A DNA stretch of 64,000 bases from contig NZ_SAUF01000002.1 of the NCBI RefSeq assembly GCF_004023665.1, positions 310,001 through 374,000 of the forward strand. Reading direction: 5' to 3'. Within the stretch, counting starts at the first letter, position 1, and each line of letters starts with the position of its first letter. Below the pieces are notes generated by a model, which made no database searches, was not told the DNA's origin, and saw only the letters and a program-made list of their open reading frames with translations. Source of the DNA: Afifella aestuarii (GTDB lineage: Bacteria; Pseudomonadota; Alphaproteobacteria; Rhizobiales; Afifellaceae). A program made the position numbers and the translations under genes. This document shows, piece after piece, positions 52,733 through 57,347 of the stretch.

Positions 52733-52819
52733 CCGCGTTCCGGTTGCGGGATGAGGCGGTAGGCAGGCCGCGTCCCGCATGCTAGATAAGTTCCTCTTTC
52801 GTTCCTGACGGAGCCTTTG

Positions 52820-54238
52820 ATGGTCCGACGCGCCGGCAGTGCCGATCTGCCGCTTCACAATGGCCGTGTCCCGGCCTGGCTCGGGCAGAGGATGACGGCG
52901 CTCGGCACTGTGATGACGGAAGCGATCGTCCACCATTACGGCCGCGACGAGTTTCTGCGCCGGCTTTCCCATCCCTTCTGGTTTCAGTCCTTCGGCGCCG
53001 TCATGGGGATGGACTGGCATTCTTCCGGCATCACCACCTCCGTCATCGGCGCCTTGAAGCGGGGGCTCGCGCCGCTTTCGGGCGAGCTCGGGCTGCATGT
53101 CTGCGGCGGGCGCGGCCGGCATTCGCGCAAGACGCCCGACGAACTCGTGGCGATCGGCGGGCGTGTCGGCTTCGACGGGACGGCGCTTTCGCGCGGGAGC
53201 CGTCTCGTCGCCAAGGTCGACAGCGCCGCGCTGCAGGACGGGTTCGACCTCTATCTGCACGGTTTCATCGTCACCGACGACGGCAAATGGGTGGTGATCC
53301 AGCAGGGGATGAACGGCGAGACGCGACTTGCCCGGCGCTATCACTGGCTGTCGGAAGACCTGACGAGTTTCGTCGATGCGCCGCATGCGGCGATCGAAGG
53401 CCGCAATCAGGGCAGAATCGTCAATCTCGCCGACCACCGCGCGGCCGCCTCGCGCGAGCGCCAGATCGATCTTCTGCGCGATGTCGGCGTCACCGGCATC
53501 GTCCGCGAATTTGCCGCCCTCGATGGCAGGCCCGAGCCTGCGGCGGCCGAGGAAGAAGCGCCGCTTCTGCCGCATCTCATAATGCCCGCGCACCACGATG
53601 TGCGCCCGAAAGACGTGGTGAGCCGGCGGCTCCATGGGGCGCTCGCCGCCGCCGCCGAATGCGGGCCGCAGGATTTTTCCGAGCTGCTTCTGACGCCGGG
53701 CGTCGGCGCCCGCACGGTGCGCTCGCTCGCCATGGTGGCGGAGGTGGTGCATGGCGCGCCCTGCCGCTTCACCGATCCCGCCCGCTTCTCGCTCGCCCAT
53801 GGCGGCAAGGACCGGCATCCCTTTCCGGTGCCCACAAAAGTCTATGACGAGACGATCCGCGTCATGCGGCGGGCCGTCGATCGGGCAAAGCTCGGCCAGG
53901 ACGACAAGCTCGACGCCATCAAACGCCTCGACCGCGAGGCAAGGCGGCTCGAAACCGTGGCGGACGGCCCGACGCTTGCCGAATATACCGGCGAAGAAAT
54001 GCGCCATTCGGCAGCCTATGGCGGGCGCAGCGTCTTCGGCTGGGAGAGCGAGGTGCAGGCGGCGGCACGGGCGCTGGAGAAGCCCAAGGCGGCAAAGAGT
54101 GACGGCGCTCAGGCGGCCAAGCCCGTGCGTGCCAGGAAACCGGCGCCTCCGGCGGACGATCTCTTTGCGGACGATCTTTTCTCCGCTGATTTTTTTACAG
54201 CCGTTCCGGGCCGGGGCGGCTCAAAGCGCTCCGCCTGA
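52820..54238 (+). CDS. DUF763 protein with a helix-hairpin-helix-like segment
   Basis: A 472-aa protein beginning MVRRAGSADLPLHNGRVPAW, the characteristic start of DUF763. It continues with WHSSGITTSVIGALKRGLAP, GGRGRHSRKTPDEL and VVIQQGMNGETRLARRYHWL. About residue 290 it has LLLTPGVGARTVRSLAMVAE, which looks like an HhH nucleic-acid-binding motif. The family is common in archaea and scattered in bacteria, and its biochemical role is not established. A variable Ala/Lys tail of about 60 residues ends the protein. ATG 52820 follows GGAG. Confidence 0.85.
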   Translation: MVRRAGSADLPLHNGRVPAWLGQRMTALGTVMTEAIVHHYGRDEFLRRLSHPFWFQSFGAVMGMDWHSSGITTSVIGALKRGLAPLSGELGLHVCGGRGRHSRKTPDELVAIGGRVGFDGTALSRGSRLVAKVDSAALQDGFDLYLHGFIVTDDGKWVVIQQGMNGETRLARRYHWLSEDLTSFVDAPHAAIEGRNQGRIVNLADHRAAASRERQIDLLRDVGVTGIVREFAALDGRPEPAAAEEEAPLLPHLIMPAHHDVRPKDVVSRRLHGALAAAAECGPQDFSELLLTPGVGARTVRSLAMVAEVVHGAPCRFTDPARFSLAHGGKDRHPFPVPTKVYDETIRVMRRAVDRAKLGQDDKLDAIKRLDREARRLETVADGPTLAEYTGEEMRHSAAYGGRSVFGWESEVQAAARALEKPKAAKSDGAQAAKPVRARKPAPPADDLFADDLFSADFFTAVPGRGGSKRSA

Positions 54239-54267
54239 TCTGGCGGACGTCCGCTCCGCCAGATCAG
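54235..54267. terminator. Perfect hairpin spanning the stop codons of two convergent genes
   Basis: CTGATCTGGCGGA / TCCGCCAGATCAG, a 13-bp perfect stem with a 7-nt loop. It contains both the DUF763 stop (54236-54238) and the radical SAM stop (54264-54266), so each mRNA ends in the same hairpin. A bidirectional terminator is the likely role. Confidence 0.75.
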
Positions 54268-55418
54268 ATCGTTGGCAGCGGCAGTTTTTCCTGGACGAGA
54301 GCGATGCCCTTGATGAGTCGGCCGAGGGCGGAGAGTTCTGCAGGATCAGCCGCCTCGTCGATCTCGCCGTTGGCGAGTTGCCGGATGGCCGCCCGGTTGC
54401 GGTTATATTGCAGCCGCGCGGTGGCGTGAAACTGCAGGCGGATGAAGTCGCAGTGATAGCCGACGCGCTTGTCCTCGTCGCCGGTGACCTCCCAATTGTA
54501 GGCATGGCAGGTCGGACAGACGGCGACCACGGGACAGGCGTTGCAATCGGTGACGGCCTCGCCGAAGCCTTCGCGCGCGTGCCGCTCGGCCGCGTGGTTG
54601 GAGGCGTAAGGCGTGAAGCGATGGCAGGGATATTCGACGCCGTCGACATCGACAGCGAGCATGTAGCGCCCAGTGCCGCACCATTTGCGGTTTTCACCGG
54701 CGGCGAGACCCGGAAGCGCGGCGATGCCGAGATCGACGAAGCGCGGCGGAGATAGCTCCGGATGGCGGGTGAAATAGGCGACGAGCTCGTCGAGCTGGTG
54801 GGAGAAGGTCGCAAGCTTTGTCCGCCGCTCCTCTCCCTCTCCCCACACGTTTTCGAAGACGACATTGGCCTCCACCAGGAGTCCCATTTCGAGGATTTCG
54901 ATAATTCCGGCCGCCACCTCGTCGATCATGTCGGCCCCGATCGTCATCTTCACCGGCTGGTCCGGCCAGTTCTCGCGCAGGAAGGGGACGTGGCGCACCA
55001 CGTCGTCGTAGGATTCCCAGCGGTTGAAATCATGCGCACGCTTGGTGCCGTCGAGACTGGTGCTGACGGTGAGGCAGCCGCGATGATGCGCAAGCCACGC
55101 CTTCTTGTCCTCGTCGAGCAGGGTCAGGTTGGTGCCGACATTGAAGTGATGGCGTTTCGGCCAGGGCCGGGAATGGACGAAATCGACGACCTCGCGAATG
55201 AGCTCGAAGCGCAAAAGCGGCTCGCCGCCGAAGAAATCAATGAGGAGCCCGTCGAAGCCATCATCGAGGGTGAGATATTTTTCGACCTTGGCCAGCGCCG
55301 TCGCGACCGGCATATCGCGGTTGCGCTTCACCTGCTCGAAGCAATAGCGGCATTTGAGATTGCAGCGCTCCGTCGTGACGAGCTGGAGCGTGCGCGTGTC
55401 GAGATCGGCTTCTTTCAT
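54264..55418 (-). CDS. Radical SAM/SPASM peptide-modifying enzyme
   Basis: A 384-aa enzyme. The 4Fe-4S radical SAM motif is CNLKCRYC (Cys19, 23, 26) with GGEP at about 64-67. The C-terminal third has a seven-Cys SPASM-like set: Cys247, Cys265, then CNACPVVAVCPTC (292-304) and Cys323, which would hold auxiliary clusters as in anSME-type and RiPP maturases. No N-terminal RRE-like domain is present; the radical SAM fold begins almost at once. It starts 4 bp after the second of two small Cys-repeat peptides, so these are the likely substrates. No sulfatase gene lies nearby. The exact chemistry (thioether or other crosslink) is not known. Confidence 0.88.
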   Translation of the reverse strand: MKEADLDTRTLQLVTTERCNLKCRYCFEQVKRNRDMPVATALAKVEKYLTLDDGFDGLLIDFFGGEPLLRFELIREVVDFVHSRPWPKRHHFNVGTNLTLLDEDKKAWLAHHRGCLTVSTSLDGTKRAHDFNRWESYDDVVRHVPFLRENWPDQPVKMTIGADMIDEVAAGIIEILEMGLLVEANVVFENVWGEGEERRTKLATFSHQLDELVAYFTRHPELSPPRFVDLGIAALPGLAAGENRKWCGTGRYMLAVDVDGVEYPCHRFTPYASNHAAERHAREGFGEAVTDCNACPVVAVCPTCHAYNWEVTGDEDKRVGYHCDFIRLQFHATARLQYNRNRAAIRQLANGEIDEAADPAELSALGRLIKGIALVQEKLPLPTI

Positions 55419-55422
55419 GGCG

Positions 55423-55677
55423 TCACGAGCCGAGCATGGTGCACACGGTCGAGCAGATCGCGTTGCAGGACCCTTTGCAGCCGCCCTTGCAACTTCCCGC
55501 GCAATCGCCGGCGCAAGACCCCTTGCAGGAGCCGCTACAGCCATCACACGCCTTCCTATCCTCTAAGGACGTCTCCGAAAGCTCCGCGAGCTTGCTGCCG
55601 AGTAGCTGTTCAAGCATTCGGCTCGCCTGACGCAATTCTTCAAGTTCGGCCTCGGAAATTTCGATATTTGATTGCAT
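55423..55677 (-). CDS. Putative RiPP precursor peptide 2, CXXX-repeat, basic core
   Basis: An 84-aa peptide. Residues about 1-43 form a helical, acidic leader-like segment (SEAELEELRQASRMLEQLLG within it). The remaining part has ten cysteines: one CxxC step followed by eight CxxxC steps (for instance CSGSCKGSCAGDCAGSC). The intervening residues are mainly Gly, Ser, Ala and Lys. It ends STVCTMLGS. ATG 55677 has GAGG six bases upstream, eight bases after the preceding peptide gene. The adjacent radical SAM/SPASM gene points to post-translational modification. Metal binding is an alternative role for such a Cys array. Confidence 0.8.
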   Translation of the reverse strand: MQSNIEISEAELEELRQASRMLEQLLGSKLAELSETSLEDRKACDGCSGSCKGSCAGDCAGSCKGGCKGSCNAICSTVCTMLGS

Positions 55678-55685
55678 TGCCCGCC

Positions 55686-55925
55686 TCACGCATTCGAGAC
55701 CGTAGTATCGCAGCCGGACGAGCAGCTGCTCGTGCAAGAATCGGCGCAGTCACCCGAACAGCTCCCCTGGCAGGAACTGATGCAGTCGCTGCTGCAATCG
55801 TGACACTGCTTAGCGTCCGCCGTTTCCACGGTGTCGCTACGACCGATGAACTGACCGCCGAGGATAAGATCGAGCGTCGCCTTGGCCCGCACGAGCTCGT
55901 AGATCTCGCGTTCGCTGAGTTTCAT
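55686..55925 (-). CDS. Putative RiPP precursor peptide 1, CXXX-repeat, acidic core
   Basis: A 79-aa peptide and first gene of the operon. The N-terminal 40 residues include SEREIYELVRAKATLDLILG, which aligns without gaps with the leader of the next peptide. The core has nine cysteines: one CxxC step then CxxxC steps (CHDCSSDCISSCQGSC, then SGDCADSC and further). Linker residues are Ser, Gly and Asp, so this core is acidic while its neighbour is basic. ATG 55925 is preceded by AGAGG. The upstream 200 bp are AT-rich. Confidence 0.8.
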   Translation of the reverse strand: MKLSEREIYELVRAKATLDLILGGQFIGRSDTVETADAKQCHDCSSDCISSCQGSCSGDCADSCTSSCSSGCDTTVSNA

Positions 55926-56306
55926 GCCGCGGCCTCTGCATATTGCTCTCTGGAGTATCGTCGTGCTTTCATATTAACGCGATTTCAGAATATATGCTTG
56001 TGGCTTATAGGCGCAGTAGTAGAGTAGAAATAATAATATTCTTAAAAGAACGGCAGCGAAAAATGTATGCGAATAAATAGTTTGGCGGCATCTCGGCTGT
56101 TTTGGTCTAGATTCAAACGTTTCAAATGAAGCTGCTGCGGCAGGAGGGACGACCGTCGCGTGAGGGGGCGCTATTCCAAAATACTGCCGGAAAAATGGTT
56201 CGGCCTGGTCCTTCGAGCCTCTGGGCCCTGGTCGCGGCCTCGGGTCAGGGCTTTCGTTGCCTGCTGCATGCGCTATCAAAGGCGCAGGCAAGTGGAGAGG
56301 ACGATT
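55926..56306. other. AT-rich intergenic region upstream of the peptide operon and the ArsC-like gene
   Basis: 381 bp between divergent genes. The segment 55970-56080 is much richer in A+T than the surrounding genes and contains no gene. It must hold the promoter of the peptide operon, but no sigma-70 pair could be fixed with confidence. An AAACGTTT core palindrome lies near 56115. Confidence 0.5.
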
Positions 56307-56651
56307 TTGACCACGATCTACGGCATCAAGAACTGCACGACGATGAAGAAGGCGCGCGCCTGGCTCGACGAGCATCAGGTGGATTACACCTTCCACGATT
56401 ACAAGACGGCGGGGATCGACGTGCCGCGGCTTCAGGGCTGGGCGGATGCGGCCGGTTGGGAGAAGCTCCTGAACCGCGCCGGCACGACGTTTCGCAAGCT
56501 GCCGGACGAGAAGAAGGCGGATCTCGACCGCGACAAGGCGATCGCGCTGATGCTGGAGCAGCCCTCGATGATCAAACGCCCGGTTCTGGAGGCGCCGACA
56601 GGGCTTCTCGTCGGCTTCAAGCCCGAGGAATATGAAAAAGCGCTCGGGTGA
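56307..56651 (+). CDS. ArsC/Spx-like reductase, YffB type
   Basis: A 114-aa thioredoxin-fold protein. It opens TTIYGIKNCTTMKKARAWLD, the YffB/ArsC-like signature with a single Cys in NCTTMKKA, followed by TFHDYKTAGIDVPRLQGW, RKLPDEKKADLDRDKAI and IKRPVLEAPTGLLVGF. The start is a TTG at 56307 with GAGAGG six bases upstream; longer in-frame starts lack support. Glutathione-dependent thiol reduction is a family guess. A partial, degenerate copy of its 3' end occurs at 57462. Confidence 0.85.
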   Translation: MTTIYGIKNCTTMKKARAWLDEHQVDYTFHDYKTAGIDVPRLQGWADAAGWEKLLNRAGTTFRKLPDEKKADLDRDKAIALMLEQPSMIKRPVLEAPTGLLVGFKPEEYEKALG

Positions 56652-56672
56652 GGCGCGAGCGCATTTGGGCGC

Positions 56673-57347
56673 TCATCCCTGCGGATGTGGGTGTGATTGC
56701 GGAGCGCCCCGCGTCTCGGCCGCTTGAAATCCCGTGAGATCAGGGCGGGCAGGGACACTCGCCGATTGCGTATACCGGAGCACCCAGACGCCGAAGCAGA
56801 GCGCGTAGAGATAGGCCGCGAATTCGAGCATTTCCTCCACCCCTTCGTGGTGGAAGTCCTCGCCGGCTTCGCCGATGAACAGCAGGAGCGCAGCGATGCC
56901 GAGCGGCCAGAAGGCGAGGAACCAGCGCGGCCTGATCATCTCCGCGATGTCATCGCGCCGCCAGAAGAGGCCGATGAATGCGACGGCGGCGCCGCCGCTG
57001 AAGAGGACGGCCTTCCACGATCTTTCGATGCACGCGCCGCCATCAAAAGTGTGGCTTTCGCAGGCGGGCATTTCGCGAACGATGGCGCAGGCGAGCAGAT
57101 AGGCGATCGGGATGCACCACGTGCCGATCGGCCCGGGCGAGCGCATGGCACGGATGAGGAAGAGCGCCGCGGCGAGGGCCACGAAAACGGCTTGCGGCCA
57201 TTCCACAGGGCCGTTTTCGGCAAACCAGGCTGCGGCATGAGACGTCTGGGTTTCGACGAACCAGCCGATTGCGATGCCGATCACCGACAAAGCGACGCCG
57301 AAGCCGAGCCAGCGCGGAACAGAAGGATATGTTTGGGAGGGAATCAT
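56673..57347 (-). CDS. Multi-spanning membrane protein of unknown function
   Basis: A 224-aa inner-membrane protein with about six hydrophobic helices (for example FGVALSVIGIAIGWFV, AVFVALAAALFLIRAM, AVLFSGGAAVAFIGLFW, FWPLGIAALLLFIGEAGEDF). A loop CESHTFDGGACIER has two Cys that could pair in the periplasm. The sequence GEDFHHEGVEEMLEF before the last helix has clustered His and Glu. I do not recognise the family. The C-terminal tail is cytoplasmic, ending SHPHPQG. It converges with the ArsC-like gene. Confidence 0.75.
   Translation of the reverse strand: MIPSQTYPSVPRWLGFGVALSVIGIAIGWFVETQTSHAAAWFAENGPVEWPQAVFVALAAALFLIRAMRSPGPIGTWCIPIAYLLACAIVREMPACESHTFDGGACIERSWKAVLFSGGAAVAFIGLFWRRDDIAEMIRPRWFLAFWPLGIAALLLFIGEAGEDFHHEGVEEMLEFAAYLYALCFGVWVLRYTQSASVPARPDLTGFQAAETRGAPQSHPHPQG

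Follow-up and report, generated by a model that had tools for sequence, protein, structure and literature searches.

A rare variant of known peptide-modifying systems in Afifella aestuarii: two Cys-ladder peptides beside a radical SAM/SPASM enzyme

Background

In a 64,000-nucleotide stretch of the Afifella aestuarii genome (hereafter the window), a gene for a radical SAM/SPASM enzyme follows two small genes, pepA and pepB, whose products carry Cys residues at nearly regular intervals. Does the enzyme act on these peptides and, if so, is the cassette one of the known peptide-modifying systems? The earlier note on this DNA, made from the sequence without database searches, had proposed that the enzyme crosslinks the Cys array.

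Several known systems invite comparison. In the CXXX-repeat systems of NCBIfam (TIGR04115 maturase, TIGR04114 repeat, TIGR04117/TIGR04118 targets, TIGR04119 C-terminal domain), a radical SAM/SPASM enzyme likewise lies beside a protein with Cys at every fourth residue. Haft and Basu 2011 is probably the first catalogue of these systems; among the papers searched, we found none that uses the TIGR04115 or CXXX-repeat names and met no report of a modification or role. The available portions of PMC11002830 and PMC9902471 contain nothing on this system. In the PapB/freyrasin system (NF047865), a SPASM maturase also acts on regularly spaced Cys; PapB links Cys to Asp/Glu by a thioether and tolerates spacing (PMC9413430, available portions). 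CteB, the maturase of SCIFF (TIGR03974; 5WGG, 5WHY), forms a Cys-Thr thioether and has both an N-terminal RRE and an auxiliary cluster with an open site that faces the active site, according to the accessible part of PMC8326336.

The cassette and its host

The three genes are read from one strand (Table 1), and their coordinates bear out the tight packing first noticed, with gaps of 8 bp between pepA and pepB and 4 bp between pepB and the enzyme gene. The latter starts at an ATG, giving 384 aa; an in-frame GTG further upstream would give 427 aa and overlap pepB. GC content is 0.405 for positions 55926-56130 versus 0.652 for the whole window. A promoter consensus scan found no σ70-like site upstream of pepA, and a terminator consensus scan found nothing at the cassette. 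The host genome contains reaction-centre genes; thus, the host is a phototroph.

Table 1. Features of the cassette and its flanks (positions in the window)
Feature	Position	Strand	Basis
pepA, 79-aa precursor-like peptide, 9 Cys	55686..55925	-	ORF; array above chance; dN/dS 0.25 vs G003
pepA Cys array: CxxC head (C41, C44), then seven CXXX steps, end C72	55710..55805	-	spacings 3,4,4,4,4,4,4,4
pepB, 84-aa precursor-like peptide, 10 Cys, pepA-like	55423..55677	-	ORF; TIGR04114 match
pepB Cys array: CxxC head (C44, C47), then eight CXXX steps, end C79	55441..55548	-	spacing 3, then 4 x8
Radical SAM/SPASM enzyme, 384 aa, apparently without N-terminal RRE	54264..55418	-	PF04055 44.3 bits; TIGR04115 and PapB below cut-off
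CxxxCxxC motif (C19, C23, C26)	55341..55364	-	invariant 19/19
Seven-Cys SPASM region (C247, C265, C292, C295, C301, C304, C323), including CX2CX5CX2C	54450..54680	-	invariant 19/19
Operon upstream region, AT-rich near pepA, presumed promoter	55926..56267	-	GC content
Block strongly divergent from G003: most of pepB, pepA and upstream region	55500..56290	.	identity per 100 bp; dS
DUF763 gene, flank outside the system, downstream of cassette	52817..54238	+	PF05559 402.5 bits
ArsC-family gene, flank outside the system, upstream of cassette	56307..56651	+	PF03960 86.6 bits

That the peptides carry Cys at every fourth residue, as first described, holds for 8 of the 9 Cys of PepA and 9 of the 10 of PepB; the first step in each is one of three residues (CxxC). 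Chance is ruled out as the source of the arrays: when the residues of each peptide were shuffled 200,000 times, no shuffle reached the CXXX run of 8 (PepA) or 9 (PepB), and the best gave 6 and 7. Among stop-to-stop ORFs of at least 30 aa in the window, pepA and pepB are the sole ones with a CXXX run of at least 4. Every Cys of both peptides is conserved in genome G003, the comparison with which gives dN/dS ratios of 0.10 for the enzyme gene, 0.23 for pepB and 0.25 for pepA. A PepB query of its own genome returned, at E <= 0.1, only itself and PepA (E 8.9e-10, 37% identity). The TIGR04114 repeat model (cut-off 20) matches PepB (24.6 bits) and leaves PepA below the cut-off (13.4), as does TIGR04117 (28.3 bits, cut-off 50). 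Together, the two peptides supply the adjoining CXXX-repeat target protein that TIGR04115 calls for. The Cys-X3-Asp/Glu motifs of PapB substrates are absent, the fourth residue after an array Cys being another Cys except at the ends.

The radical SAM/SPASM enzyme and its relatives

The enzyme starts at its radical SAM domain and so appears to lack a fused RRE, which sets it apart from CteB. The search against HMM collections that the earlier note had recommended found TIGR04115 (156 bits, cut-off 350) and the PapB model NF047865 (137 bits, cut-off 340) to be the nearest models; in this NCBIfam scan (best 25 of 74 families at E <= 10), the families listed all scored below their own cut-offs. 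Membership in TIGR04115 or PapB by curated cut-off is thus ruled out. The best dozen models all represent maturases of peptides or proteins, among them several that form thioethers, in keeping with the general role of SPASM enzymes as peptide modifiers on which the first proposal had drawn. Other scores were 94 bits for the QHNDH maturase, 76 for SCIFF TIGR03974 (cut-off 425) and 75 for RumMC.

Relatives were collected by a scan of genome contigs, the best 80 of 337 being kept. In a 30-row tree, the window enzyme lies within a 19-row clade (97/95), and three canonical TIGR04115-type proteins stand apart (100/99) in an adjoining position. Besides the window and G003, the clade comprises Rhodobium orientis, a Methanosarcina MAG, Chlorobium ferrooxidans, Clostridia, an Eggerthellaceae MAG, Verrucomicrobia, Bacteroidales and a Phocaeicola plasmid. 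A second tree (28 rows, some long-branched) again separates six canonical proteins (97/88) and groups the window weakly (84/68) with Rhodobium, Methanosarcina, Chlorobium and two deltaproteobacterial rows. The canonical group is the nearest neighbour of the window clade in both trees, and the window enzyme does not fall among its members. Judged by best E-value, none of the 19 clade members reaches the TIGR04115 or PapB cut-off (for TIGR04115 the window enzyme itself has the best, 1.7e-45). With that model, scores are 411-487 bits for four canonical proteins and 340 for one phage relative. The window enzyme has no TIGR04119 match at E <= 1e-10, unlike the Anaerococcus protein.

The clade also contains some particular arrangements. 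The Methanosarcina locus comes from a 5.5-kb MAG contig, which could be mis-binned. A Muribaculaceae MAG (G1006; L031, L181, L183) carries three clade enzymes within ~13 kb, with three different Cys peptides. In Bacteroidales (L035, L036, L038), a short peptide with the ending CTxCWGGxCAxGITG precedes a pair of such enzymes.

The CxxxCxxC motif and seven SPASM Cys named in the first description are invariant in all 19 aligned relatives, so that each of these carries a SPASM domain by this measure. The SPASM consensus has CX3C at the position where the clade has CX2C; accordingly, the window enzyme reads CX2CX5CX2C where CteB reads CX2CX5CX3C. Otherwise, CteB has the same seven SPASM Cys, in a layout matched by eye, and among solved relatives it has the highest sequence-profile score (157 bits, versus 92 for TigE and 80-82 for anSME). 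An AlphaFold2 model (17 sequences) has a mean pLDDT of 88.2, segments 1-4, 242-244 and 281-283 lying below 50. In a Foldseek search with this model, CteB was best by E-value, followed by anSME and ChlB, with SkfB also among the matches; TM-scores were equal for CteB and anSME (0.63-0.67).

Pairing of the enzyme with Cys peptides

If the enzyme were dedicated to such peptides, its homologues should keep them nearby. A pattern scan of 87 loci found a CXXX run of at least 4 within 700 bp at 12 of 18 clade loci and at 6 of 69 others (L103, the nineteenth clade row, was added later). Two of the six runs outside the clade resemble real precursors, namely those at L039, which is itself canonical, and L063, which we take to be SCIFF-like; the other four lie in frames that are antisense or overlap. 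Shorter Cys peptides are present at L103 and at the six clade loci without such a run, giving a small Cys-bearing ORF at 19 of 19 loci, a count that is biased to success in that the shorter peptides were picked by eye for Cys, that includes a Chlorobium peptide with two Cys alone, and that accepts L035 and L038, where the second enzyme gene of the pair sits between peptide and enzyme. Homologues mostly lacking such peptides had been named as the finding that would tell against the proposal; within the clade, with some peptides recognized by eye, the pairing is instead kept across several phyla. The peptides lie upstream of the enzyme at every locus of the subgroup formed by the window, Rhodobium, Methanosarcina, Chlorobium and the deltaproteobacterial rows. 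At the other 14 clade loci they lie downstream in 9, upstream in 4 and on both sides in 1.

No other neighbour family was common to the 17 loci compared (ORFs of at least 80 aa, some on short contigs) beyond near relatives or single pairs: clusters of non-enzyme neighbours were confined to four related Clostridia loci or to the pairs L022/L035 and L032/L033. Nor was a transporter, peptidase or regulator common to the 17 found among these ORFs. An RRE, a transporter and a peptidase, which the earlier note had described as lacking next to the genes, were likewise absent from the ORFs of at least 80 aa examined and from the five named window neighbours. At E <= 0.01, the host genome has no match to the PqqD family, which represents the PqqD type of RRE alone (3 of 14 control genomes positive), and none to Peptidase_C39 (8 of 14 positive). 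PepA contains the sequence LILGG, and double-glycine export was considered for it; the lack of a genomic Peptidase_C39 match weakens this idea.

Taken from sequence and gene order, conservation of the enzyme-peptide pairing is well supported, and the enzyme very probably modifies the two peptides.

The precursor peptides and their CxxC head

When the peptides were set side by side, and only then, a shared feature that had gone unmentioned in the earlier note was recognized: 20 of 23 precursors have a step of three (CxxC) that leads directly into the steps of four or into the last Cys. Five of the 23 were read stop to stop, and they include near-duplicates (four Clostridia, three Bacteroidales, and the window with G003). 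The exceptions are Rhodobium A, which has no CxxC head, and the Methanosarcina and Phocaeicola peptides, which have a step of two. The Chlorobium peptide has the CxxC with no ladder beyond it, and the natural variants extend from 0 to 16 further Cys steps past the head.

The head was seen again in four of four deltaproteobacterial genomes, from 257 searched in the class of the record titled Deltaproteobacteria; these four are closely related and count as one lineage. Here, a protein of ~235 aa, whose ladder opens CSGCKGGC, is encoded directly before the enzyme gene. Two of these ladders were found by Cys content and two by a filter allowing steps of three or four. In the Muribaculaceae MAG, the second peptide has a CxxC and the third has none at its start; this provides no test, since the listing itself required CxxC.

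Other parts of the precursors are less uniform. With the precursors listed together, the positions between the Cys are variable and mostly small or polar, and there is no conserved acceptor residue. NCBIfam models matched at E <= 0.01 were TIGR04117 (7 of the 23 precursors), TIGR04114 (3), TIGR03601 (1) and TIGR04167 (1), and one deltaproteobacterial ladder protein had no NCBIfam match at E <= 1e-5. A leader common to the clade is unsupported: with a model built from 12 distant leaders, scores were matched by shuffles (2000 each) in 47 cases for PepA, 402 for PepB, 12 and 387 for the G003 pair, 302 for Methanosarcina and 1764 for Rhodobium B; Rhodobium A was unscored.

Distribution and evolution of the cassette

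The cassette is rare. Clade-level matches to the enzyme were found in two of five genomes of the genus, with a third matching only at E 5.9e-9, and in 3 of 297 genomes of the order (E <= 1.3e-99); for five weaker matches in the order (E 2.7e-21 to 1.1e-18), the 1.5 kb on either side contains no CXXX array. At E <= 1e-30, the host's own genome alone matches among 385 sampled in the class and 398 in the phylum. Thus, of the two features first called unusual, the alphaproteobacterial host is indeed one; the two-peptide layout also occurs in Rhodobium and a Verrucomicrobia MAG. Rhodobium and Chlorobium are phototrophs, and the phototrophic hosts (window, Rhodobium, Chlorobium) may reflect a shared anoxic niche.

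In G001, of the same genus, the sequences that flank the cassette are ~100 bp apart versus 2083 bp here, so that the DUF763 gene adjoins an ArsC-like gene. The empty cassette site in the sister species is at about 2866-2966 of L107. The synonymous distances of the three flanking genes from the window's genome (G000) are similar for G001 and G003. A DUF763 match at E <= 1e-50 is lacking in G002 and G004, so that the site comparison covers G001 and G003.

Identity between G000 and G003, per 100 bp, is 84-100% over 54200-55499, 48-81% over 55500-56299 and 91-95% over 56300-56599; other low stretches are the end of the DUF763 gene (54000-54199, 78%) and a stretch past the ArsC-like gene (56600-56699, 61%). 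The sharp boundary of divergence falls inside the pepB Cys array, and the enzyme is nearly identical. Synonymous divergence (dS) is 0.77 for pepA and 0.81 for pepB (~50 synonymous sites each) versus 0.165 for the enzyme and 0.11-0.18 for the three flanking genes. On this sequence contrast, pepA, pepB and the upstream region either have been exchanged or have changed much faster than the enzyme.

At E <= 1e-15, the window enzyme matched only two phage records, at 26-29% identity; consequently, a phage origin is not claimed. Related enzymes do occur in viral contigs (IMG/VR), where TIGR04115-type enzymes lie beside long CXXX-repeat domains (L111 and L119 5555-5947, L112 5242-6294, L126 2522-4432), with TIGR04115 scores of 486 bits for L111, 433 for L112 and 340 for L126 (cut-off 350). 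The ladder protein of L112 has 350 aa, and the gene before its enzyme resembles, by eye, a phage tail or spike protein; in L126, a 516-aa protein has the ladder as its C-terminal end. The viral-contig CXXX maturases may therefore act on phage structural proteins. Large Salmonella and Erwinia phages (e.g. LR535915.1, NC_019929.1) also encode radical SAM proteins with ~25% identity to a viral-contig CXXX maturase.

Proposed chemistry and its rivals

The reading that we favour, and hold to be rather probable from these comparisons, is that of a minimal RiPP-like system, apparently without export, whose enzyme puts thioether bridges on the Cys ladder. PepA and PepB would be the substrates, each made up of a leader region at the N-terminus, a linker that varies and, towards the C-terminus, a Cys ladder opening with CxxC. 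The enzyme would bind them without a fused RRE and oxidise the ladder by 5'-deoxyadenosyl radical chemistry; the most likely product would be thioethers from Cys sulphur to carbons of neighbouring residues, the substrate thiolate perhaps being held, CteB-like, on an auxiliary cluster with an open site. The proposal of thioethers draws on the enzymes that come closest by family model and sequence profile, on a seven-Cys SPASM layout like that of CteB and on the chemistry of PapB. Evidence that may count against them is the lack of a conserved acceptor, unlike the Cys-X3-Asp of PapB, the family scores far below cut-offs and, as far as the predicted fold can tell, the tie in TM-score between CteB and anSME, a non-crosslinking enzyme.

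No dedicated protease, exporter or immunity gene was found, so the modified ladders would probably stay intracellular and have a structural, redox or metal-binding role instead of acting as an antibiotic. The absence of genomic C39 and PqqD matches and of shared export genes likewise suggests that the product remains inside, and general secretion or proteolysis could still act on it.

The main rival, which we regard as fairly unlikely, is a Cys-only reaction: each Cys would be modified singly rather than crosslinked, for example to a thiooxazole (-4 Da per Cys, SbtM-like) or an anSME-like formylglycine, giving a row of modified residues. Conversion to formylglycine removes 18 Da per Cys. The missing acceptor fits a reaction for which Cys and the backbone suffice, and anSME forms the second Foldseek group, level with CteB in TM-score. 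The SPASM enzyme SbtM, moreover, removes four hydrogens from a Cys peptide (PMC11002830, available portions). However, the CteB profile is well ahead of that of anSME, and the seven-Cys SPASM layout matches CteB. In addition, anSME has an extra cluster-binding Cys, which is absent from the invariant Cys of the clade.

Quite improbable, in our estimate, is that the bridges run from sulphur to the alpha-carbon (sactionine) rather than to a non-alpha carbon (ranthionine). The acceptors of sactipeptides differ in identity, as the variable X positions would permit, RumMC scores about the same as SCIFF (75 and 76 bits), and SkfB is among the fold matches; against this, two non-alpha formers, PapB (137 bits) and the QHNDH maturase (94), outscore RumMC, and the best solved relative is CteB.

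A further reading takes the peptides for metal binders of the metallothionein kind that stay unmodified, with the radical SAM gene as a mere neighbour. It accords with the peptides' very high Cys content and with the absence of an export or protease gene among the neighbours compared, and is nevertheless very improbable and rejected, since the same enzyme clade accompanies such peptides in several phyla with no other neighbour family common to them, and the genes here are 8 and 4 bp apart.

Significance

With thioether formation as the preferred reading, the cassette is predicted to work like the CXXX-repeat and ranthipeptide systems, and by cut-offs and tree it lies outside both TIGR04115 and PapB. 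From the canonical TIGR04115 systems it differs in its separate enzyme clade, the CxxC head of its substrates and a score below the cut-off; from PapB/freyrasin it differs in lacking a Cys-X3-Asp array and in an enzyme score of 137 bits against a cut-off of 340. It is a rare, uncatalogued variant of known peptide-modifying systems, with relatives that range from an archaeal genome bin to gut bacteria.

A broader picture can be offered as an unlikely, speculative one. A horizontally spread system of ladder and maturase, shared by anoxic phototrophs, a methanogen and deltaproteobacteria, might yield a non-exported ladder, radically modified from the CxxC head onwards over a variable length and forming an intracellular metal- or redox-binding polymer. 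This would be a radical SAM counterpart of the MNIO-made bufferins, which are also ribosomal peptides modified by an iron enzyme, albeit of a different class. Bufferins are Cys-rich; the excerpts available describe them as chelating copper.

The cassette offers a compact, three-gene proteobacterial test case: its substrates are short, no accessory gene was found, and its clade provides natural variants in ladder length. It lets mass spectrometry ask what happens to a CXXX ladder, and whether this happens from a fixed end.
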